Shown: in pieces, positions 52,748-62,787 of the stretch
How positions within the stretch are numbered: the first letter of the stretch is position 1
Layout: each line of letters starts with the position of its first letter
Source of the DNA: Rhizobiales bacterium 62-17
Lineage (GTDB): Bacteria > Pseudomonadota > Alphaproteobacteria > Rhizobiales > Beijerinckiaceae
DNA length: 64,000 nucleotides
NCBI GenBank assembly: GCA_001898965.1
Contig: MKVW01000003.1
Location: forward strand, 328,844-392,843
Reading direction: 5' to 3'
The notes under the pieces: model-generated
The model's input: the letters and a program-made list of their open reading frames with translations, nothing else
Database searches by the model: none
Told to the model about the DNA's origin: nothing
Program-made: the position numbers and the translations under genes

Positions 52748-53935
52748 ATGTCTGCGATTGTTCAGCCCAATCTTGCTTATCGTCACGTTCTCGTTCTGAC
52801 AGGGGCATTGTTTCTCTCTTATCTTGCGGTGGCGATGTCGCTGCCGGCTGTGTCGCTCTTCGTCGTCAACGATCTCAATCTGAGCAATGCCTATGGCGGC
52901 TTGGCCGTCGGTATTGCCTTTCTGTCGACGATCATCACGCGCGGCCAGGCCGGCGCGTTCACCGATAAACTCGGCGGTAAGCTCGTCATGCAACGCGGCC
53001 TCGTTCTCTATGCGGTCGCAGGCCTGATCTGCCTGCTCGCCGGCTTGCCGCAACTGCCCGTCACTGGACGTTATGCCGTGCTGATCGTCGGGCGTCTGCT
53101 GCTGGGCTTAGGCGAAAGTTTCGCCATGGTGGCCATGGTCGGTTGGGCAATCGGCCTCATGGGCCATGGGCGCTCCGGCCAGGTGCTCTCGCTCGTCGGC
53201 ATGGGCATGTATGGCGCTTTCGCCGCCGGTGGTCCGCTGGGCCTGGCCTTGCTCGACCACATCGGCTTTGCCGGTTTGATGATGGTGTGCACGGCCTTGC
53301 CCCTGGTCGGGCTGATCGGCATCCATTGGTTGCCGGCGGTGGCGCCGCAGGCGGGTCAGCGCGAACCGTTCTGGCGGATCATCGGCCGCATCTGGCGTGC
53401 CGGTGCCGCCGTCAGCCTGCAAGGCGTCGGCTTCGCGGCACTGGGCGCTTTCTTCGCGCTCTATGTGATGAGCCATGGCTGGCCCTATGCCGGGCTCGGC
53501 CTCACCTTCTTCGGTGTCGGTTTCGTCGGCATGCGCTTGCTCTGCGGCCACTTGCCCGATCGCATCGGCGGCACCCGCGTCGCCGCCGTCTCGCTCGCGG
53601 TGGAAGCCTGCGGCCAGTATCTGCTCTGGCTGGCGCCCGGGCCGGAGCTGGCGCTCGTCGGTGCTTTGCTGACTGGGCTTGGTTGTTCGATGGTGTTTCC
53701 GTCGATGGGCTCGGAAGTCGTCAAGCAAGTGCCGCCGCATCTGCGCGGCACGGCGGTCGGCGGCTTCGCCGCCTTCCAGGATCTCGCCTATGGCGCGACC
53801 GGGCCGGTGGTGGGCGTGCTGGCGGATTATTCCGGCTATTCGAGCGTGTTCCTGATCGGCGGTCTGGCGGCGACACTGGGCGTGTGGTTGGCGCTGGGGG
53901 TGCGCAGATCGATGGCGCAGCCGCAACAGGCCTGA
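52748..53935 (+). CDS. MFS transporter (YfcJ/YhhS-like)
   Basis: A 395-residue 12-helix MFS protein: LFLSYLAVAMSLPAVSLFVVNDLNLSNAYGGLAVGIAFL, then the DKLGGKLVMQRG loop and GRLLLGLGESFAMVAMVGWAIGL. The pattern is that of the arabinose-exporter-like YhhS/YfcJ family. The ATG at the end of the leader hairpins was chosen (GGAG 7 bases upstream); an upstream frame start lies in the hairpin region. A decayed copy of part of its 3' half is found at 55290-55470. The gene ends in an ATCACGTTTC palindrome. Confidence 0.85.
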   Translation: MSAIVQPNLAYRHVLVLTGALFLSYLAVAMSLPAVSLFVVNDLNLSNAYGGLAVGIAFLSTIITRGQAGAFTDKLGGKLVMQRGLVLYAVAGLICLLAGLPQLPVTGRYAVLIVGRLLLGLGESFAMVAMVGWAIGLMGHGRSGQVLSLVGMGMYGAFAAGGPLGLALLDHIGFAGLMMVCTALPLVGLIGIHWLPAVAPQAGQREPFWRIIGRIWRAGAAVSLQGVGFAALGAFFALYVMSHGWPYAGLGLTFFGVGFVGMRLLCGHLPDRIGGTRVAAVSLAVEACGQYLLWLAPGPELALVGALLTGLGCSMVFPSMGSEVVKQVPPHLRGTAVGGFAAFQDLAYGATGPVVGVLADYSGYSSVFLIGGLAATLGVWLALGVRRSMAQPQQA

Positions 53936-53972
53936 CGCCAGAGGGGCAACACCACGCATGAGCCTTTGCAAG

Positions 53973-54001: not shown

Positions 54002-54778
54002 TTAAGCGCGTTTGCGCTCCCAATTCAGAGCGGCAATGCGCTGATCGGCGGCGAAAGCGTCGCGCGGAAATTCCAGCGCCTGTTGCGGAAACTCGCACAG
54101 GGCTTGGACGCCCGACGTGTTCAGGCGAATTCGCCATGTCTGGCGGCTGACCGGAGCGGCTTGAGAAAATGTCCGGCACGTCAGGATCGCCAGATTGTGC
54201 CCTCGGGCGGGGTCGCGCACCGACTGGTAGCGGATGACATCGGCATCGGCTGTTCTGGCGGCATCGGCGAAAGCCTGGCAGCCTGCGTAATCGATGGGAT
54301 CGGTCCAGATCGCGGCGTCGGCCGCCAGGGGCGCGCTGGTCAGATCGAGAAGACGGGCCGTGGAGATGCCGGCGGAAAACGCGGTGTATTCGGCGGCGTT
54401 GGAGGGCCAGGGCGTGGCGGGGGACTCGGCGAAGAACAACAGCCGGTAGAAAGCCATTTCGGCCACGGCCGTCGGGGCGCTCTCCGAAGCATAATAAAGA
54501 CCGGGCGTGCGCCCGGCGCGCCGGAAGCGCGAGCCGCGTGGGTAGGGGGCGCCGTAGCGGAAGGGCGTTGCCAGCAGGAAGTCGAGGTGCCGGCAGTCCA
54601 GGGGGATCGCCGGCTTGGTTGCTTCGATCAAATCCTCAAGCAGAGCCTGCTCGGCGAGCGTATCGGTCAGCTTCAGCGTGGAGACGCGGTGCTGCGCCTC
54701 GACGAGCCGCCAGCACACACCCTCGAAGCTGCGAAACTCAGACGAGAGCGCGACGCGCGTCCAGATAGCCGATGACAT
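54002..54778 (-). CDS. RES-domain toxin
   Basis: A 258-residue RES-family protein. RES toxins of type II systems degrade NAD+ (MbcT-like). The family pattern is visible around GSRFRRAGRTPGLYYASESAPTAVAEMAFYRL (Arg and Glu of the R-E-S set) and RGHNLAILTCRTFS late in the chain. It starts inside the 3' end of the antitoxin gene (41-base overlap), so translation is coupled. Together they form a toxin-antitoxin operon next to the SIR2 gene; both would act on NAD+. Confidence 0.85.
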   Translation of the reverse strand: MSSAIWTRVALSSEFRSFEGVCWRLVEAQHRVSTLKLTDTLAEQALLEDLIEATKPAIPLDCRHLDFLLATPFRYGAPYPRGSRFRRAGRTPGLYYASESAPTAVAEMAFYRLLFFAESPATPWPSNAAEYTAFSAGISTARLLDLTSAPLAADAAIWTDPIDYAGCQAFADAARTADADVIRYQSVRDPARGHNLAILTCRTFSQAAPVSRQTWRIRLNTSGVQALCEFPQQALEFPRDAFAADQRIAALNWERKRA

Positions 54779-55121
54779 CGATGAGTCCGCTGATGGTTTG
54801 CACTTTCTCGATCGGCCGGGCGTCGAGGGCGGTGTTGGGATTGGTCAGCCAGCGCGCGGCCACCTGCGTGTCGCCGCCAACGATGGAATCGAGCGAGCGA
54901 AACAGGCGCACGAAAAGGACGGCCAGCTCGAAGGGCTTCGTGCCCGGCTCAAGCCCAAACTCGCCGCGCTTCATGCGCGACACCGTCGCCTCGCTGACAC
55001 CGATGACAAGCGCCAGGATGCGGGCGGTGACATCCAACTGATCCGCCGCCCGGACAACGGCCCGCGTGATGACGCCACCGGCTTCCGGGGTCGCGGTGGG
55101 CGAGAGGCCAGGGGTGGGCAT
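54738..55121 (-). CDS. Xre/MbcA/ParS-type antitoxin of the RES toxin
   Basis: A 127-residue antitoxin: an N-terminal HTH (about 28-55, LDVTARILALVIGVSEATVSRMKRGE) and a C-terminal MbcA/ParS (DUF2384) domain (about 65-125, ELAVLFVRLFRSLDSIVGGDTQVAARWLTNPNTALDARPIEKVQTISGLIDVIGYLD). It neutralises the toxin and represses the operon. The start MPTPGLSPTATP was chosen from AAAGGA about 7 bases upstream. A CTTTC-TTTG-GAAAG dyad overlaps this site. Confidence 0.85.
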   Translation of the reverse strand: MPTPGLSPTATPEAGGVITRAVVRAADQLDVTARILALVIGVSEATVSRMKRGEFGLEPGTKPFELAVLFVRLFRSLDSIVGGDTQVAARWLTNPNTALDARPIEKVQTISGLIDVIGYLDARRALV

Positions 55122-55129
55122 GGCAAATC

Positions 55130-55143
55130 CTTTCTTTGGAAAG
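55130..55143. promoter_or_regulatory. dyad at the antitoxin ribosome-binding site
   Basis: CTTTC-TTTG-GAAAG just upstream of the antitoxin start. A related GGAAAGGA lies about 40 bases further out. Spacing and position fit autoregulatory operator half-sites of an Xre-type antitoxin, in an AT-rich stretch that includes CATATT as a possible -10. Confidence 0.35.
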
Positions 55144-55289
55144 AATATGCTAATTAAATACCTAAGGAAAGGAAAATCATGTGGGCGCTTGAGGCGACCT
55201 CTTGCTACCAAACGGCGTCATTGCGGGAACATTGAGTTGATTTTACTGCGGAATTTATGCCTGGAGCCTGGATATTCTTGTGATCCCTT

Positions 55290-55470
55290 GGCCGGGTGCC
55301 TTGCCGGGGCTTGGGGTGCTCGATGGTGGTTTCCGGCCATTGGGCTCGGAAGTCGTCAAGCAAGGCGCCGCTGCGGCTGCGTGGCACAGCGGCGGCCGCC
55401 TTCCAGAATCTCGCTAATGGGGCGATGGGCCGGTGATCGGTGTGCTGGCGGATTGCTTAGGTTATCCGAT
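55290..55470 (+). pseudogene. decayed fragment of an MFS transporter gene
   Basis: This stretch is plainly similar to 53660-53830 of the intact MFS gene (for example GGGCTCGGAAGTCGTCAAGC and GTGCTGGCGGATT are shared). It has small indels and an in-frame stop near 55415, and no upstream or downstream remainder. It corresponds to the GLGCSMVFPSMGSEVVKQ ... GVLADYSGYS region. It is a truncated, non-functional paralogue lying between the toxin-antitoxin operon and the SIR2 gene. Confidence 0.75.
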
Positions 55471-55549
55471 CACCGGCTGTGAGGCTCGGGGTATGGATGG
55501 CGGTGAGTGTGCATCGACGCCGCCGTACAGCCGCAAGAGGCATGACATG

Positions 55550-55578
55550 AAAAAGGGCGGCCTGATAAGGCTGCCCTT
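55550..55578 (-). terminator. terminator of the SIR2 gene
   Basis: On the minus strand AAGGGCAGCC and GGCCGCCCTT pair (one G-U), with loop TTATCA and a following T run, about 50 bases after the SIR2 gene stop. Confidence 0.75.
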
Positions 55579-55628
55579 GTCCTTCCGGGTTATGGTCCGC
55601 AGGCACATCCCTCTGTCACGTCGGGCCG

Positions 55629-58600
55629 CTACGCAGAGGTCGTGGCGGTGCGAGCAGGGTCTGCAAGTTGGGGAACAGCAGTCATCGCGGCAACTCGGCC
55701 AGGCTTCATGTCAATGGCGACAGGTCCCGATCTCGTGAAACGGATATGAAAGTTCATCTCGGATCCGAAGGTGAGAGACGGCCAATCATCCGGAGATGCT
55801 TGATCATGTCGACCATAAATGTCTTTAGGATAGGCTGTAGATTTCACAAATAAATAGTTGAGCTCTTGCTTGCAGACAATACCACTATAACGTCCGAGCA
55901 TTTTCGAAACTAGTGAATCCTGACGTGGAATAGAAGATCTCCACTCTTCAGGCGCATGCTTGTCGATGTCGACGAAGAGGTCAGCGGCATCAGAGGCTGA
56001 TCCCATAAGAAATAGGAACTGAGCATGCAGGTGACGAGATTCAAAGTTATGATCACCTTTGCTGTAGCTGCGAGCCAAATGCCCTTTAATAAGGTTGCGA
56101 TCTCCTCCGGTAGATAGAAGTAGCTTAGACACCTCAAAGTGTAATTGCTTGTCGTCTGGAAGTCGCTCTAGTGCCGATGTGAATATCTGTCCAGCTTTCT
56201 CTGTTCTGCCACGTGATGCGTAGGCATTAGCAAGTCGGATGGCGACTCCTGAACCCTTAGCGCCAAGTGCGAAAGCACGCTCCAACGCATGCAACGCTCG
56301 GTCGGGTTGATCCAAAACCTCATGGAAACGCGCTTCGACTTGTTGGAGCTCTGGACTTTCAGGAACGATCTGGCGTGAACGTGCAAGCTGATCTTCGGCC
56401 AATTTCACTTGAGTAGCGAAATAGGCAACATCGTGCTCTTTACTTGCGTCGTTCAAGCTTTCGCTCAGAGTCTCTATCTCATCGATCAGCAACTTGCAGC
56501 GACTTGTTGTGACAATTGAGTTCTTTGGTGAGCCCATCTCGTCAAGGCGTTCGCGTGCTTGCTGTCGGTATTGCGCTTTAAGTGCTGGGTTTTGTTCCCC
56601 ATGTGCTCGTCGCCGAGCTACCTCGACTTGAGTATGGATGATCGAACTCGACTTTGGAGAGAGTTCTCGGGCACGTCGAGCGAGATTCTCTGCTTCTACA
56701 AGCGATCCACGACGGTGATGCATTTCGAAGATTGCCCAGTGTTGTAAGATATGAGCTTGTTGAGGAAGCGCCGTAACTGCTGCTCTATAAATTGCTCGTC
56801 CAGCATCGACGTCTGATAAATCCTCACTTAATTTGCGACCACGTACAATATCTTGGAGCACTTGGTTATCGGTTGAATAACCGGGATCAAGCCCGTTGAT
56901 AATGCGGGTAAGCTGAGTGACTTTTTCCTCGTCAGTTGAGCAAGCGCTTCTAAATACGAATTGTGCAACGCGCGAATGGCGAGCTCGATACTGGTAATCT
57001 CCGGTGTAAGGATCTCGTAGTGTCATGACTACGTTCTCCAGTGGAGCGAAGAAATCGCGCTCATAGTCCTCGAAACGAATACCGGATATGCGCGATATCG
57101 TGCCAGCTCGCACTGGCACGGCAAATTGGTTCATGGTGGCTATGTCGAGGTAAAGGCGCTGCGCTTGTCCTGGAACAATTCGTTGATATTCTTCGAAGAC
57201 GATTTCTTCGAACCGTTTGCCCTGTGTCGCCTCGTGCAAGGCGACAAGTAGCTGGCGTTCAGCCCGCTGCTGAAAAGCCTGCACTTGTTCGGCTCGCGTC
57301 ATGTCGGCTAGCAATCCTAACGACTTGTGTCGCTCCAATAGATCAATAAGACGCTCGATCTCGCTGGTAGAAAGGTTTGCGATACGTAATTCAGTTGGAG
57401 CGAATGGTTTAAGAGGTGCACAGTAGATATTCCACTCGCTATCACGCTCGGCGCCTACTATGGTGAGTGGTACTTTATGGGTTTTTGCTAGGTTAAGCGC
57501 GGTTACGATCTGGTCTGCATATAGAGCGATACGGTCGACGAATAGGAAAATGCGCCGCCCGGTAAGTTCGTAGAGCTCGATCAAGCGTTCGCCAGCAAGT
57601 TTTCCACCCGGCTCCAACCAGAGCGTTAGAGCGTCAAAAACTGTGGCCGAATCCCAGGCTGCCCGTTTAAGAGCGATCGTTTTGCCGGCACCTCCTGGCC
57701 CACGTAGGACGAAAAGACGGGCATCAGTGGAACTAGGTGCTTCGTCCGTGACAGCTTTGAATACGAGGTCGCCGGTTAGCCTACGTTCGGCATCGAGACG
57801 CTGGATGATGGCGCCCCAACCAGTGTCGAAACCTTCGTAGAACTTCTTTGGATCCTGGCTAGAGTGCGGCAGATCTTGGTGTAAAAATGTAAAGTCTCGT
57901 TCTAATGCTGATCGGAGCTGCGGTGTTTCGGACGATTGGACTCTATAAAGGTGTCGTATCGGTAATTCTTTGACTTCTGTGGTGACAGAAAGGGAACGAA
58001 GAGGAGGGGCAAAGGCATGGTCAAGCGCCTTCATGAACTCGCCGAAACGGGCGTTGATGACGCTCACGTTCATACTCCCCCAGTAAGCAATTTCGTGCTC
58101 GGGGAGATTGGGGACGACAAGGTAGTATCGGGGGCGATTACCCAGTCCGACAAAGCGATGTACTAGTTTGCGAATATGGCCGTCGGCCATTCGATACCCG
58201 CAAAAGACAATAGGGCTCTCTCGCGCTCGATCTTCTAAGCGAGCAAAGAGGCGTGAGCGGCCGTTCATGTAGCGGTCATAATGTTCATGCGAAAGGACGG
58301 GTGGTAGCGCAGGATCATGAAATTGTTCAAGGCACCCGTGAAGTTTTAGGTACTCCACGGGAGCAGTTACAGCCTGCATTCGCTGCTCAACGGGTTCGGT
58401 ATCGCGAACGAATGTGACTAGGTTCTGTAAACGGCTATTTGTTGCCGCGTAGGCGCGCTCAAGAAGCAAGTCGTAGTTAGTAGTTGCGATAGTTCGCCAG
58501 CGAAATGTAGGCAGTAATTTGTGCGCATCAGAAGGCTCGTAGTGCGCTAGCAGTGTTCGTAGATAATCAAAGACAACACTGCCTCCGTGTGCCTGTATAG

Positions 58601-58802
58601 CCATCTCAGCAACGGACATGAGGTCGTAACCGTCCATCTCTGATTTGAAAAAGTGTTTAGCTATTGCCGCTCGTATAGCATTTCCTGACGGCGCTCCCGC
58701 TTCCATTGATGCGCCTGCACCCAAGAACAGAATCACTCGTTGCTGCTGCATGGATGCAATCAGGGTGTTCGGAATTAGGTTGAGCGAGGTGTCCGCGTTC
58801 AT
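55629..58802 (-). CDS. SIR2-domain NTPase with TPR repeats and a cold-shock-like C-terminus (putative anti-phage sensor)
   Basis: A 1057-residue protein. N-terminal SIR2-like NADase domain (about 15-265): ILFLGAGASMEAGAP, ATTNYDLLLE (Asn109, Asp111), LKLHG (His155) and VFCGYRMADGHI. Then a P-loop NTPase (about 300-680) with Walker A LRGPGGAGKTIALKRAAW (about 368-375) and FLFVDR, like STAND ATPases. TPR-type repeats follow (about 690-950), and finally a cold-shock-like OB-fold segment (about 970-1034). The start follows AGGGGG by 8 bases. Lower GC than its surroundings. SIR2-STAND proteins (Avs5-like) deplete NAD+ on sensing phage; that role is inferred here. Alternatives are other SIR2-TPR defence proteins. 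Confidence 0.85.
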   Translation of the reverse strand: MNADTSLNLIPNTLIASMQQQRVILFLGAGASMEAGAPSGNAIRAAIAKHFFKSEMDGYDLMSVAEMAIQAHGGSVVFDYLRTLLAHYEPSDAHKLLPTFRWRTIATTNYDLLLERAYAATNSRLQNLVTFVRDTEPVEQRMQAVTAPVEYLKLHGCLEQFHDPALPPVLSHEHYDRYMNGRSRLFARLEDRARESPIVFCGYRMADGHIRKLVHRFVGLGNRPRYYLVVPNLPEHEIAYWGSMNVSVINARFGEFMKALDHAFAPPLRSLSVTTEVKELPIRHLYRVQSSETPQLRSALERDFTFLHQDLPHSSQDPKKFYEGFDTGWGAIIQRLDAERRLTGDLVFKAVTDEAPSSTDARLFVLRGPGGAGKTIALKRAAWDSATVFDALTLWLEPGGKLAGERLIELYELTGRRIFLFVDRIALYADQIVTALNLAKTHKVPLTIVGAERDSEWNIYCAPLKPFAPTELRIANLSTSEIERLIDLLERHKSLGLLADMTRAEQVQAFQQRAERQLLVALHEATQGKRFEEIVFEEYQRIVPGQAQRLYLDIATMNQFAVPVRAGTISRISGIRFEDYERDFFAPLENVVMTLRDPYTGDYQYRARHSRVAQFVFRSACSTDEEKVTQLTRIINGLDPGYSTDNQVLQDIVRGRKLSEDLSDVDAGRAIYRAAVTALPQQAHILQHWAIFEMHHRRGSLVEAENLARRARELSPKSSSIIHTQVEVARRRAHGEQNPALKAQYRQQARERLDEMGSPKNSIVTTSRCKLLIDEIETLSESLNDASKEHDVAYFATQVKLAEDQLARSRQIVPESPELQQVEARFHEVLDQPDRALHALERAFALGAKGSGVAIRLANAYASRGRTEKAGQIFTSALERLPDDKQLHFEVSKLLLSTGGDRNLIKGHLARSYSKGDHNFESRHLHAQFLFLMGSASDAADLFVDIDKHAPEEWRSSIPRQDSLVSKMLGRYSGIVCKQELNYLFVKSTAYPKDIYGRHDQASPDDWPSLTFGSEMNFHIRFTRSGPVAIDMKPGRVAAMTAVPQLADPARTATTSA
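55700..55895 (-). other. coding segment for a cold-shock-like OB-fold domain
   Basis: The last 90 residues of the SIR2 protein read like a cold-shock domain: GRYSGIVCKQELNYLFV, AYPKDIYGRH, then LTFGSEMNFHIRFT and SGPVAIDM. This parallels the G-x-V ... F-x-F-I ... D-x-F-x-H ... L-x-x-G-x-x-V-x-F ... G-P-x-A pattern of CspA-type RNA/ssDNA binders, with several changes at the usual RNP aromatics. By eye only. Confidence 0.5.
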
Positions 58803-58971
58803 ATGATTTTGCCCCCTCATATTGCTCTTGTTGGTTTATCGCGTTGTCGCGACTTGATTATTATTTCTAAGCTTCAGCTTTGGGTATTGCCTCTTGTTCT
58901 GAGTATTGGATCACGCCGTTCGCTGTATGGCTATGAGCTAGAAGGCGGAAATATTTGCTTTGCTCAACCAA

Positions 58972-59005
58972 AAACAGTGACAAGCTTGCTGGCTCGTCAC
59001 TGTTT
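58972..59005. other. inverted repeat upstream of the SIR2 gene
   Basis: AAACAGTGAC and GTCACTGTTT form a perfect 10-bp dyad around a 14-base loop, in the AT-rich 283-base spacer between the SIR2 and nrdJ genes. It may be a terminator-like hairpin, an operator, or a mark of the island edge. Nothing else was recognised in this spacer. Confidence 0.45.
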
Positions 59006-59085
59006 GGGTCTTTGTTAGATGCCATCTCTCATGTAATGGCACGTTATATTAGGGCTAGCGCAAAATTGCAGTGATAATTCGCCCC

Positions 59086-62000
59086 TTACGAACACCCCGT
59101 CGTTGAGCCACACGTGTCGCACTTCAAACACGTCCCGTTCCGCACCAGCGTGAAGTTCTGGCACTCGGGGCAGGCTTCGCCGACGTAGCCTTTCATGCGC
59201 GCTTCGGCGCGACGGTCGGCGACCGAGGGGGCGGTGGCTGTGGTGCTCGACGCAGCCGGCGCTTGCCAGTTCAGCGTTTCGATCACTTCAGCGGTGTCGC
59301 GCAGCGCGGTCGTGGCTTCCGCGTTGTGGGCGCGGGCGGCGGGCTGGTCGGCGTAGTCGTCCTTGCCAGTGCCGGTCTTCACTAGCATCAGGCGGTCCTG
59401 CTTGCCGCGCACGAAGCCCGAGGAGACGAGCGGTGCCGCCTGATTGCGGCCCTGGTCTTCGCCGCCGCCGATGACGGTCGAGCCGATGTCGGAGGGTTCG
59501 ACATGGGCGAGATCGTTGCGGTTCAGGTAGGAAATGGCGAGTTCGCGGAACACGTAGTCGAGGATCGACGTGGCGTTCTTGATCGCGTCATTGCCCTGCA
59601 CGAAGCCTGCCGGTTCGAAGCGGGTGAAGGTGAAGGCGTCGACATATTCCTCCAGCGGCACGCCATATTGCAGGCCGACCGAGATGGCGATGGCGAAGTT
59701 GTTCATCAGCGAGCGGAAGGCGGCGCCTTCCTTGTGCATGTCGATGAAGATTTCGCCGATGCGGCCATCGGCATATTCGCCGGTGCGCAGGTAGACCTTG
59801 TGGCCGCCGACAACGGCTTTCTGGGTGTAGCCCTTGCGGCGATCGGGCAGGCGTTCGCGCTCGCGGGTGCGCTCGACCCGCTCGACGATACGCTCGACGA
59901 TCTTCTCGGCCACCTGCGCGGCGCGGGCGGCGTTCGGCAGCTGCACGAGCTGCTCGACCGCATCCTCTTCGTCGTCGCTATCGTCGGCGATGAGCTGCGA
60001 GTTGAGCGGCTGCGACAGTTTCGAGCCATCGCGGTAGAGCGCATTGGCCTTGAGGCCGAGGCGCCACGACAGCATGTAGGACTCTTTGCAATCCTCCACC
60101 GTCGCATCGTTCGGCATGTTGATCGTCTTGGAGATGGCGCCCGTGATGAAGGGCTGCGCCGCCGCCATCATGCGGATGTGGCTTTCCACCGACAGGTAAC
60201 GCTTGCCGGTGCGGCCGCACGGATTGGCGCAGTCGAACACGTTGTAGTGCTCGGTCTTCAGGAAGGGCGCGCCTTCCAACGTCATGGCGCCGCACACGTG
60301 CGTGTTGCAGGCCTCGATCTCGGCGCGCGAGAAGCCGAGGAACGCCAGCAGTTCGAACGACGGATCGTCGAGCTTTTCCGCCGGCACTTTCAGCGCGCCT
60401 ACGAGGAAGTCGGCTCCCAAGGTCCACTTGTTGAAGACGAACTTGATGTCGAAAGCGCCTTTCAGCGACTTCGCCAGCACGTCGAGCTTTTCGTCGGTGA
60501 AGCCGCGCGCCTTCAACGTCGCATTGTTGATGGCGGGTGCCTGGGCGAGCGAAGCATGGCCCACGGCATAGGCTTCGATCTCGGCGATCTGCGAGGGCGA
60601 GTAGCCGAGCACGCGCAGAGCTTCCGGCACGGCGCGGTTGATGATCTTGAAATAGCCGCCGCCGGCGAGCTTCTTGAATTTCACGAGTGCGAAGTCAGGC
60701 TCGATGCCGGTGGTGTCGCAATCCATGACCAGGCCGATCGTGCCGGTGGGCGCGACGACGGTGGTCTGGGCGTTGCGATAGCCGTGCTGTTCGCCCTTGG
60801 CGAGTGCACGATCCCAGGCGGACTTGGCGCTGTGCGAGAGCGCGCTCCAGTTGGTGCCGAGCTTGATCAGCGAGGCATGGTCGAGGGGCACGGGCGCGAC
60901 GGCGACAGTCTCGTAGCCAGCCGCTTCGCCGTGGGCGGCGCGGCGATGGTTGCGGATGACGCGCAGCATGTGGTCGGCATTCGGCTTGTGGCCGGGGAAG
61001 GTGCCAAGCTCCTTGGCCATTTCGGCCGAGGTTTCGTAGCAGACGCCGGTCATGATGGCCGAGAGCGCACCGACGATGGCGCGGCCTTCGTCGCTGTCAT
61101 AGCCGAGGCCCGACGACATCAGGAGGCCGCCGACATTGGCATAGCCGAGGCCGAGCGTGCGGTAGTCGTAGGAGAGGCGGGCGATTTCCTTGGACGGGAA
61201 CTGCGCCATCATCACCGCGATTTCGAGCACGATGGTCCACAGGCGCACGGTGTGTTCGTAGCCGGCAACATCGAACGCGCCGGTCTCCGGGTTGCGGAAC
61301 TGCAGCAGGTTCAGCGAGGCGAGGTTACAGGCCGTGTCGTCGAGGAACATATATTCGGAGCAGGGGTTCGACGCGATGATCGGACCCGAGGCCGGGCAGG
61401 TGTGCCAGTCGTTGATGGTGGTGTGATATTGAATGCCCGGATCGGCGGAGGCCCAGGCGGCATAGCCGATCTTCTCCCACAGGTCTTTCGCCTTGAGGGT
61501 CTTGTGCAGCTTGCCGTCGGTGCGGCGCGTCAGGTTCCAGTCGCCGTCCTTCTCGACCGCGCGCAGGAATTCGTCGGTGACGCGAACCGAATTGTTCGAG
61601 TTCTGGCCGGCGACCGTCAGATAGGCTTCCGAATCCCAATCGGTGTCATAGGTGTCGAAGGCGATGTCGGTATAGCCCTGACGCGCGAACTGGATGACGC
61701 GCTTGATATAGCTGTCGGGCACGGCGTCGCGGCGGGCTAACTTCACCGCCTTCTTCAGCGCCGGGTTCTTTTCGGGGTTGAAGCAATCATCGCCCGGGCC
61801 TTCGCAGTTGACGCAGGCCTTCATGACCGCGGTCATGTGCTTCTTGACGATTTTCGAGCCGGTGACGAGGGAAGCGACCTTCTCCTCTTCCTTCACCTTC
61901 CAGTCGATATAGGCTTCGATATCCGGATGGTCGGCATCGACGACGACCATCTTGGCGGCGCGGCGGGTCGTGCCGCCCGACTTGATGGCGCCGGCGGCGC

Positions 62001-62787
62001 GATCACCGATCTTGAGGAAGCTCATCAGGCCGGAGGACTTGCCGCCGCCCGACAGTTTCTCGTTCTCGCCGCGCAGGCGCGAGAAGTTCGAGCCGGTGCC
62101 CGAGCCATATTTGAACAGGCGCGCTTCACGCACCCAAAGATCCATGATGCCGCCTTCGTTGACGAGATCGTCGGCGACGGACTGGATGAAGCAGGCGTGG
62201 GGCTGGGGATGTTCGTAGGCGCTCTTCGACTTGGTGAGCTTGCCGGTGAATGGGTCGACATAGTGATGGCCCTGGCCCGGGCCGTCGATGCCGTAGGCCC
62301 AGTGCAGACCGGTGTTGAACCATTGCGGCGAATTCGGCGCGGCCATCTGGCTCGCCAGCATGAAGCGCATTTCGTCGAAGAATGCCTGCGCGTCGTCTTC
62401 GCTGTCGAAATATTTGCCCTTCCAGCCCCAATAGGTCCAGGTGCCGGCGAGACGGTCGAAGACCTGGGTCGAGGTCATTTCGCCGCCGTAGCGGGCGTCC
62501 TTCGGCAGATCGGCGAGGGCTTCTTCGTCGGCGACCGAGCGCCACAGGAACGAGGGGACGTCGTTCTCTTCAACCTTCTTCAGGCGGGCGGGGACCCCGG
62601 CCTTGCGGAAATACTTTTGCGCGATGACGTCGCACGCGACCTGGCTCCAATCGGCGGGTACGTCAATACCGTCGAGCGAGAAGACGACCGAGCCATCCGG
62701 GTTGCGGATTTCACTCTTGGCCTTGCGGAATTCAATGTCCGCATATGGCGACTGATGGGCTTTGGTGTAACGACGTTCGATCCGCAT
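59086..62787 (-). CDS. nrdJ: vitamin B12-dependent ribonucleoside-diphosphate reductase
   Basis: A 1233-residue class II ribonucleotide reductase, which makes deoxyribonucleotides with adenosylcobalamin and needs no oxygen. Visible: the active-site region [68 protein letters not shown], and a C-terminal zinc-ribbon ([22 protein letters not shown]). The long form with C-terminal extension is typical of Alphaproteobacteria. It has a roughly 500-base upstream gap to the next gene; a weak NrdR-like dyad lies about 240 bases before it. No B12 riboswitch was recognised. Confidence 0.95.

Follow-up and report, generated by a model that had tools for sequence, protein, structure and literature searches.

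The window analysed here (64,000 nts from Rhizobiales bacterium 62-17) carries on its minus strand a gene (55629..58802) whose product of 1057 amino acids has the architecture SIR2 - nSTAND5 - winged-helix-like region - TPR - cold-shock domain. With a probability of roughly 0.65, this product is a single-protein SIR2-STAND abortive-infection sensor in which the cold-shock domain most likely contacts nucleic acid. In our best reading, what is new here is the nSTAND_NTPase5 and the cold-shock tail on an otherwise known type of SIR2-STAND sensor; a description of the exact SIR2-STAND-TPR-cold-shock architecture was not found in the literature.

The reading frame is free of internal stops, and translation together with Pfam confirmed the single-gene SIR2-STAND-TPR protein proposed in the initial annotation. 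An alternative ATG lies upstream at 58820, but the start at 58802 is favoured because a Shine-Dalgarno-like GAGGGGG precedes it by 9 nts. The Pfam matches of the protein are well past chance (SIR2_2, E 1.3e-21; nSTAND_NTPase5, E 1.8e-29; TPR_14, E 5.6e-10), and the predicted SIR2 and P-loop folds were recovered by Pfam, in an AF2 model (pTM 0.42, domain packing uncertain) and by Foldseek. As had also been claimed, the DNA is of lower GC content (0.506 over 55584-59082 versus 0.613 for the whole window). Conservation was read from family alignments, including A1 (10 members) and A2 (11 members). Two near-identical relatives, L002 and L003 (99.4% over 8.26 kb), both stand in A1, while L003 alone represents them in A2, A3 and A4, and L002 was omitted from the A1 domain identities. 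L048, L060 and L062 lie outside A1-A4, and a relative with an interrupted frame (L041), one annotated as two CDS (L012) and the partial matches L042-L046 are in no alignment.

The SIR2-like NADase domain covers residues 10-262 (58017..58775, minus strand), with the Pfam match at residues 104-249. The motifs GAGAS, TNYD and LHG are present at residues 28, 108 and 154, with N109 and H155 as the expected catalytic residues. N109, D111, K153, G156 and D207 are invariant in all aligned members (10/10 in A1, 11/11 in A2), and H155 is kept in 9 of the 10 and 11 of the 11. The STAND P-loop NTPase (nSTAND_NTPase5, PF25199) follows at residues 320-463 (57414..57845, minus strand) and was matched in every A1 member (10/10). 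Motif positions and alignment columns place the Walker A GPGGAGKT, which the initial annotation had read correctly, at residues 368-375 (57678..57701, minus strand), where K374 is the expected Walker residue and is invariant in the family alignments. The same columns place a Walker B-like FLFVDR at residues 419-424 (57531..57548, minus strand), with one acidic residue and then an Arg that varies across the family. According to the alignments, the lid or winged-helix-like region (residues 476-640, 56883..57377, minus strand) is the most conserved segment and includes an invariant His609, possibly an MHD-like histidine. It is followed by helical TPR repeats (residues 641-955, 55938..56882, minus strand; Pfam TPR_14/TPR_19, helical in the model), a putative sensor or scaffold. 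The intact, conserved N109/H155 and K374 favour a SIR2-STAND sensor.

The same layout is found in Avs5, EfAvs5 (PDB 9jap) and PaAvs5 (PMC12931631) being likewise single proteins composed of SIR2 (PF13289), STAND and helical repeats. PF13289, the N-terminal effector of Avs5, is matched in the window protein (E 1.3e-21), and motif spacing is similar: N109, 155-156, 368-375 and 419-424 here, N110, 153-154, 357-364 (Walker A) and 406-410 (Walker B) in PaAvs5-1, whose Walker B also combines one acidic residue with Arg (PMC12931631, same portion). Sequence homology with 9jap_A spans SIR2 and NTPase, as a family profile matched its SIR2 domain (i-E 1.1e-12) and, at i-E 2.2e-8 (6e-11 for the core profile), the stretch from the NTPase to the first of the helical repeats. 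Among the 50 Foldseek matches listed for the whole model, EfAvs5 and SAMD9 come first, EfAvs5 with the best E-value and SAMD9 with the best TM-score, followed by an AVAST5 filament and DSR2, which also favours a SIR2-STAND sensor. However, identity as Avs5 was ruled out by a different NTPase family and a different tail. In the part of PMC12931631 available, the NTPase of tested PaAvs5 is nSTAND3 (PF20720), a family that Pfam listed for the window protein at neither E 1 nor E 10, settings at which HMMER filters drop many weak matches, whereas PF25199 reaches 1.8e-29. Weak PF20720 matches in relatives (3 of 10 A1 members, best 1.2e-4; L060, 0.0039; the shorter L051, 3.2e-7) show that the two NTPase families are related. 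The window protein is about 200 amino acids longer than PaAvs5-1 or EfAvs5 (an 869-amino acid chain), the deletions described for PaAvs5-1 extending to residue 828 (PMC12931631, in part), and its additional C-terminal cold-shock domain is apparently absent from Avs5. A PADLOC search at E up to 1 gave 18 matches, none labelled Avs5, from a library that may hold no such model.

Two other SIR2 systems were considered. Thoeris ThsA, which combines SIR2 with SLOG and has the TIR protein ThsB as its partner, gave the best match to the SIR2 domain both in PADLOC and in a single-sequence PDB search. The PADLOC match is confined to residues 12-218, SLOG is not among the Pfam hits of the window protein and a Pfam scan of five neighbouring ORFs in the window gave no TIR protein; membership was rejected because the SIR2 domain alone matches. 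DSR2 also joins SIR2 to a long helical part (Foldseek E 6e-11), and we know of no STAND NTPase in it. Membership was excluded by the NCBIfam Dsr2 equivalog NF041819 (28.5 bits against a cut-off of 1400). DSR2 was described to deplete NAD+ (PMC11087589, as far as its available text goes).

The C-terminal tail (residues 968-1034, 55701..55901, minus strand) is a cold-shock domain, a five-stranded OB fold, as indicated by Pfam in relatives, a profile match to CspA and the fold of the window tail model. Of the 15 full-length members whose tails were scanned, 11 matched Pfam CSD (E between 2.7e-10 and 0.027), three exceeding the gathering score of 27 (L036, 40.4 bits; L038, 39.1; L060, 38); the four tails without a match are those of the window, L010, L033 and L035. 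The tails of L003, L015, L037, L039 and L062 lay outside this separate scan, and whole-protein Pfam at E up to 10 listed CSD for just 3 of the 10 A1 members. The tail profile retrieved CspA at 3.5e-7, and all 11 PDB chains matched by the window tail model in Foldseek at E <= 0.001 are cold-shock-domain proteins. The window's own tail is thus recognised by fold alone, below Pfam detection, and the suspicion that repeats and tail depart from canonical Avs5 proved right for the tail.

The usual ligand of the cold-shock fold is RNA or single-stranded DNA. By analogy with Avs5 and STAND biology, the TPR array and the cold-shock domain would keep the STAND NTPase closed at rest. A phage-derived trigger would bind this TPR and cold-shock half, ATP exchange would open the NTPase and the protein would oligomerise, such that clustered SIR2 domains would hydrolyse NAD+, stop the infected cell and so confer phage protection. 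The cold-shock domain most likely adds a contact with single-stranded nucleic acid (RNA or ssDNA), as trigger or co-signal, a role in the trigger being proposed with less assurance than the other steps. NAD+ hydrolysis by Avs5 is shown in PMC12931631; as a hallmark of Avs5 it is expected upon the sensing of JADA or another phage activator.

A substantial but less probable alternative is that the TPR half recognises a phage protein in an Avs-like manner while the cold-shock domain has no nucleic-acid role and serves only for structural capping, for dimerisation or as a clamp that keeps the protein autoinhibited. What Avs5 senses is a phage protein, and it cannot do without its C-terminal helices (PMC12931631, in part). 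As phage proteins are what Avs sensors recognise in the studies consulted, protein recognition by TPR requires no nucleic acid. The TPR part is moreover the larger one and variable among the family (mean pairwise identity 0.25-0.34). In the window copy, RNP2 is degenerate (IYGR, the RNP2-type His being replaced by Arg998) and the tail is close to neutral (8 basic and 7 acidic residues), hence this copy may bind nucleic acid weakly or no longer at all. Against this alternative, aromatic residues at 983, 985 and 996 (Y983, F985 and Y996 in the window) occur in 11/11 A2 rows, at positions that line the nucleic-acid-binding side of cold-shock domains, although in A1 Phe at 985 is kept in only 7 of the 10 rows. 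The E. coli copy (N18-04097, WP_097725118.1) and the viral-contig copies L036, L037 and L039 also carry a GFGFV motif. Finally, the gene is under purifying selection, tail included: dN/dS is 0.035-0.068 between the window and Parvibaculum in the three segments of finite dS (SIR2, NTPase and cold-shock; dS of 2.1-2.9, near saturation) and 0.013-0.062 in all segments between L037 and L039.

Neighbourhood comparison showed that homologues are patchy and often single-gene mobile cargo, not core genes; an exclusively core or housekeeping distribution, named beforehand as evidence against a defence role, was not found. Together with the SIR2 and P-loop domains, this supports the SIR2-STAND sensor proposed in the initial annotation, outside Avs5 by its nSTAND3 criterion. 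Carriers include a tniABQ transposon, a conjugative plasmid and the psu-int slot of a P4-like satellite of E. coli, where the gene is flanked by psu, the polarity suppression gene, and an integrase gene. In P4-like elements this slot is a hotspot of antiviral systems, and L038, which adjoins a phage portal gene, fits the second hotspot next to gpQ (both hotspots described in PMC9122126). Type I restriction genes occur near the copies of Psychrobacter and Hyphomonadaceae, and the Vibrio copy adjoins VapBC, an Abi gene being found 6 kb away; these neighbours, the psu-int slot and the portal gene favour an anti-phage sensor. A TIR-NLR of the P4/P2 hotspot, whose psu-int slot a member of the window's family thus occupies, likewise combines STAND with C-terminal TPR and an exchangeable effector, and SIR2 may stand in for TIR in some hotspot proteins (PMC9122126, in part). 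The protective protein of that study bears TIR, and the available text mentions no cold-shock domain for it (PMC9122126). An effector swap on the same NTPase-TPR-CSD body was not seen among 17 matching plasmid records, as the 14 that cover at least 80% do so with the SIR2-bearing query. The window protein and L036, as separate queries, found no match in 50,697 records of a phage genome collection.

It is rather improbable that the cold-shock domain senses an infection-caused host state (e.g., stalled ribosomes, loss of tRNA or free mRNA) and guards against any mobile element, plasmids included: RNA sensing suits the cold-shock fold and copies occur on plasmids and a transposon besides the satellite, but the P4 slot suggests a conflict with phages, not with plasmids. 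It is very unlikely that the gene has nothing to do with phage defence and is a selfish stabiliser or a signalling gene, such as a transposon addiction module or a SIR2 protein-deacylation regulator; the Rhodopseudomonas/Parvibaculum copy does lie within a tniABQ-resolvase transposon (exact matches of at least 12 bases were not found between the two stretches searched for its terminal inverted repeats), but no conserved partner gene was seen by eye in the annotation tables of the carriers, the VapBC pair of the Vibrio copy aside, and the SIR2 domains that come closest belong to ThsA, EfAvs5, KomC and DSR2.

SAMD9 and SAMD9L share with the window protein the order SIR2, P-loop STAND, TPR and cold-shock-type OB (PMC5445408, as far as accessible), and the human antiviral protein SAMD9 (PDB 9zjr) has the highest query TM-scores of the 50 Foldseek matches listed (0.37-0.39, scores given without aligned ranges). 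SAMD9 differs in its AlbA/tRNase and SAM domains, none of which is present here. AlbA_2 sits N-terminal to SIR2 in the SAMD9 family, is lost in some members and is replaced by a kinase in many bacterial ones; Pfam lists neither AlbA_2 nor a kinase for the window protein, in which SIR2 starts at about residue 10. SIR2 and the Walker lysine are intact in the window (GPGGAGKT), whereas in the SAMD9 family SIR2 is a variant and Gly takes the place of the Walker lysine (PMC5445408, in part). SAMD9 was not among the best 60 of 293 profile matches, the best 60 of 251 with the core profile or the 56 with the tail profile; its match by fold is strong. Bacterial SAMD9/9L relatives were described to share the central core only, with functions harder to predict (available text of PMC13245274). 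It is possible, if doubtful, that the bacterial proteins represent a version of the SAMD9 core that is catalytically complete, in which NAD destruction by SIR2 is the original effector function and the half made of TPR and cold-shock domain is a nucleic-acid-responsive sensor. If so, the sensor-switch body would have been retained in animals while SIR2 and the Walker lysine decayed, killing having shifted to an AlbA-type tRNase, and a bacterial SIR2-STAND protein triggered by viral RNA or ssDNA, not by a phage protein, would represent a new trigger class for the group. The finding bridges the literatures on bacterial SIR2-STAND defence (Avs5) and human SAMD9/9L. With SIR2, Walker A and OB tail together in one protein, the SAMD9 body plan becomes directly testable as an anti-phage switch in a laboratory E. 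coli, as do the signal detected by the OB domain and the idea that SIR2 is the ancestral effector.

The description as a lone gene between housekeeping genes was dropped for a variable site with a RES-Xre pair. A housekeeping flank stands on one side, where a class II (B12) ribonucleotide reductase gene, nrdJ (Pfam; 59086..62787, minus strand), forms the right border and homology to relatives resumes at about 59083. The other side holds an MFS transporter gene reduced to a decayed 3′ end (55301..55578, plus strand; blastn to L029), a marker of the inserted segment's left edge, and the RES-Xre pair. The claim that the gene has its own terminator is doubtful: the hairpin and T-run 3′ of the gene (55550..55578, minus strand), read by eye from the sequence, were absent from a simple consensus terminator scan and can still read as a minus-strand terminator, yet the hairpin is probably shared or pre-existing because it sits within a stretch (55314-55578) homologous by blastn to the MFS 3′ end of the nearest relative, G022 (L029, 6212-6496). 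At this site G022 carries a different low-GC NTPase module in place of the gene. A general nrdJ-side defence hotspot was not seen in the genus, as comparable NTPase cargo occurs in G022 only in a survey of 13 other genomes with nrdJ in the flank (ORFs judged by eye, with a scan for G022 only; two further flanks, one just 84 bases long and the other lacking an nrdJ match, were left out). The neighbouring pair consists of a RES-domain toxin (54002..54778, minus strand; Pfam RES, 6.8e-32) and an Xre/MbcA/ParS antitoxin (54738..55211, minus strand; Xre_MbcA_ParS_C, 3.6e-11; Xre-like-HTH, 1e-8), the RES toxin family being known for NAD+ degradation.

The reading of positions 55629-58802 on the minus strand as a single gene of 1057 residues is borne out: the frame is free of stops, GAGGGGG lies 9 nt 5′ of the start at 58802, and the gene is single-copy, its only match in its own 5.66-Mb genome being itself. 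The GC content of the gene stretch is 50.6%, compared with 61.3% for the window, in agreement with the lower-GC DNA described in the initial annotation. In the protein, Pfam identifies SIR2_2 at residues 104-249 (1.3e-21), nSTAND_NTPase5 at residues 320-463 (1.8e-29) and TPRs at residues 832-890, matches that exceed chance by far. The SIR2-like and P-loop NTPase domains proposed from motifs were thereby recovered, the named SIR2 motifs and the Walker A motif being present, and the repeats assigned to the C-terminal half are represented by the TPRs. Overall, we read the protein as a SIR2-STAND abortive-infection sensor, with a probability of roughly 0.65.

It had also been suspected that the tail departs from the canonical SIR2-STAND type. 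This was found to be correct, as the C-terminal tail of the family is a cold-shock domain, judging by CSD (the Pfam cold-shock domain family) matches of relatives, a profile match to CspA and the fold of the window tail. A cold-shock-like C-terminal pattern is visible in an alignment of 10 members, and CSD was matched by 11 of the 15 family tails scanned in all (E 2.7e-10 to 0.027), namely 5 of 7 in a first set (all except L010 and the window tail), 4 of 6 in a second (all except L033 and L035) and both full-length members among a further protein set. Three tails, from loci L036 (40.4 bits), L038 (39.1) and L060 (38), exceed the CSD gathering score of 27 bits; when whole proteins were scanned, a harder test, CSD was listed for 3 of the 10 aligned members. 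As counter-evidence, the window's own tail gave no CSD match in the Pfam scan and carries IYGR at its RNP2-like stretch, where other members have, for example, IFVH or IFFP. Its AlphaFold2 model contains five strands with a core pLDDT > 90, and all 11 Foldseek matches of this model at E ≤ 0.001 are cold-shock-domain proteins. In PDB sequence searches, the end of the full-length family profile matches UNR (2.8e-5) and CspA (9e-4), and the tail profile aligns end-to-end with CspA (3.5e-7) and reaches 56 sequences at E ≤ 1, of which the majority are cold-shock proteins and the weakest include FimH chains. Residues 983, 985 and 996, which we take to be the counterparts of CspA stacking residues, are aromatic in every row of a second, 11-row alignment and in 9, 7 and 9, respectively, of the 10 members of the first.

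Residues N109, D111, K153, G156, D207, G368, G373, K374, R453 and H609 are invariant in both alignments (10/10 and 11/11). Position 155 is His in 11/11 and 9/10 sequences, the exception being L015, which has Asn, a variant described as functional in PaAvs5-1 in passages of PMC12931631. The family is under selection: dN/dS between the window gene and the Parvibaculum copy is 0.035 for SIR2, 0.068 for the NTPase and 0.060 for the cold-shock domain at a dS of 2.1-2.9, which is near saturation, the other segments having saturated synonymous sites and hence no ratio. For a less diverged pair of viral-contig copies (L037 and L039), dN/dS is 0.013-0.062 over all segments. Mean pairwise identity is 0.34-0.50 in the SIR2 and winged-helix regions, 0.29-0.40 in the NTPase, 0.24-0.34 in the TPR and cold-shock regions and lowest, 0.21-0.27, in the SIR2-NTPase linker; a STAND sensor would be expected to vary more in its sensor half, as here.

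In sequence the body of the protein resembles Avs5, and in plan SAMD9. The family profile matches EfAvs5 (PDB 9jap) over SIR2 and also over the NTPase through the first helical repeats. With the full AlphaFold model (pLDDT 79.4, pTM 0.42) as Foldseek query, EfAvs5 ranked first (6.3e-21, query TM 0.25), followed by human SAMD9 (2.5e-19 to 3e-18), then by an AVAST5 filament and DSR2; the query TM of SAMD9, 0.37-0.39, was the highest among the 50 matches listed of 1696. However, the Avs5 proteins tested in PMC12931631 are described there as carrying an nSTAND3 NTPase, for which no match is listed in the window protein. The two NTPase families are related, since nSTAND3 is matched in Pfam by 3 of the 10 aligned members and by the shorter L051. 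Passages of the same paper report that PaAvs5 is structurally similar to SAMD9, which roots the Avs5 tree there. L051 (769-3225, 818 aa) and L052 (586-3105, 839 aa) encode SIR2-nSTAND5 proteins without a CSD match, which also give weaker nSTAND3 matches and are possible links between the family and Avs5.

The SAMD9 core, as outlined in passages of PMC5445408, consists of AlbA_2, a variant SIR2, a P-loop NTPase whose Walker lysine is replaced by glycine, TPR and an OB domain of cold-shock type, AlbA_2 and SIR2 having been lost in some family members and a kinase being present in many bacterial ones. The order from SIR2 onward is identical in the window protein, which, unlike SAMD9, keeps its catalytic residues intact; it has no AlbA, SAM or kinase domain. 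Because SAMD9 is absent among the sequence matches listed for three family profiles, common descent with it rests on fold and domain order.

By homology with Avs5, the protein would be closed at rest and its STAND NTPase would open in an ATP-dependent manner, leading to oligomerisation, hydrolysis of NAD+ and arrest of the infection. Speculatively, the cold-shock domain could let nucleic acid act as the trigger or a co-signal, a proposal which, taken alone, we hold tentatively, at somewhat under even odds. Cold-shock domains in conflict systems are as such already known, given that a passage of PMC7159879 lists them with the domains that bind RNA in NTP-dependent systems and that the PADLOC model CSD_V matches the tail of the E. 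coli copy. Homologues of SAMD9 in bacteria, like systems of the SIR2-STAND type, are also known kinds, of which the window protein is a variant. No description of a SIR2-nSTAND5-TPR-cold-shock protein, nor the name nSTAND5, was found in listings of the open-licence literature, which takes in few subscription journals, and such proteins may stand unnamed among published lists of SAMD9 or Avs5 homologues.

Relatives of the gene are often cargo of mobile elements. In Parvibaculum and Rhodopseudomonas (L003 4166-12118 and L002 140-8092), the family gene is located between tniA-tniB-tniQ and a resolvase gene, with no other large ORF separating tniQ from the resolvase, in a transposon that we take to be of Tn5053/Tn402 type; 8.26 kb are 99.4% identical between these two genera. 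In Methylobacterium the gene is followed by a resolvase, and recombinase-family genes lie within 3 kb of it on Klebsiella, Psychrobacter, Acinetobacter and Hymenobacter plasmids. Viral contig L036 has an adjacent integrase and a primase-helicase, presumably of the P4 kind, and in L038 phage portal and terminase genes directly adjoin the family gene. In a P4-like element of E. coli N18-04097, the gene for phage polarity suppression lies on one side of the family gene and an integrase on the other. According to passages of PMC9122126, antiviral systems concentrate at two hotspots, psu-int in P4-like satellites and gpA-gpQ (portal) in P2-like phages, the P4 hotspot including STAND-repeat proteins with SIR2 replacing TIR. 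Other neighbours are type I restriction genes (adjoining, Psychrobacter), HsdR and HsdM (2-8 kb away, Hyphomonadaceae locus), a VapBC pair (adjoining, Vibrio) and an Abi gene (6 kb off, Vibrio).

The distribution of the family is rare and patchy. A peptide-pattern search of an 84,980-species collection, which detects close relatives only, gave near-full-length relatives at three loci (Rhodopseudomonas, Parvibaculum and a Hyphomonadaceae MAG). Among 110 matching plasmid records, 14 reach at least 80% coverage of the window protein; in nine of these (eight Klebsiella, one Acinetobacter baumannii) the annotation divides the gene into two or more CDS. Nine of 14 viral-contig loci are near full length, one with an interrupted frame, and a single E. 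coli genome out of 5,426 matched the L039 DNA in a search mode needing ~85% identity; 50,697 phage records gave no match. Within the genus, none of 36 other genomes has a full-length match, and one (G007) matches weakly over SIR2 only. Matches at E ≤ 1e-20 were obtained in 3 of 385 genomes of the class, at full length in the window's own and G118, and in 10 of 398 of the phylum, the whole profile being covered only by the window's own. The NTPase part as query matched 4 of 199 genomes of the order at E ≤ 1e-15, including G827 (41% in a 1041-aa frame). Interrupted copies occur on a Klebsiella plasmid (L012 8031-11051, annotated as two CDS) and on a viral contig (L041 from 8010, early stop). Two viral-contig proteins, L044 6800-10528 (1242 aa) and L045 1856-5674 (1272 aa), match SIR2 only in Pfam at E 0.01 and possibly form another SIR2 sensor family.

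G022 is the nearest by nrdJ (class II ribonucleotide reductase) identity among 50 same-genus genomes compared (nrdJ 91%, MFS region 83%). At the site corresponding to that of the SIR2 gene, the interval from an MFS 3′-end copy to nrdJ holds in G022 a KAP NTPase gene (PF07693 1.3e-6; PADLOC candidate PDC-S49 1.8e-21) and a 329-aa partner for which Pfam gives no match (L029 8746-11540, GC 50.3%). Since, of the 13 further genomes whose flank includes nrdJ, G022 alone shows comparable cargo when judged by eye, a hotspot on the nrdJ side is suggestive only.

Directly downstream of the SIR2 gene, within 0.5 kb, lies a RES-domain toxin and Xre/MbcA/ParS antitoxin pair (54002-55211). RES toxins degrade NAD+, and the pair is a second putative NAD-attacking module; positions 54085-55016 have a 69%-identical copy elsewhere in G003, of the same genus. 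MFS 3′-end copies flank this pair (53663-53936 and 55301-55578) and, in G022, SDR/AraC genes (L029 6212-6496 and 8330-8571), as if the MFS 3′ end had been repeatedly duplicated around insertions. The final 1.2 kb before nrdJ holds related ORFs of ~300 aa in two relatives (L069 and L074), and the final 0.9 kb in a third (L072) holds an ORF that appears HNH-nuclease-like by eye.
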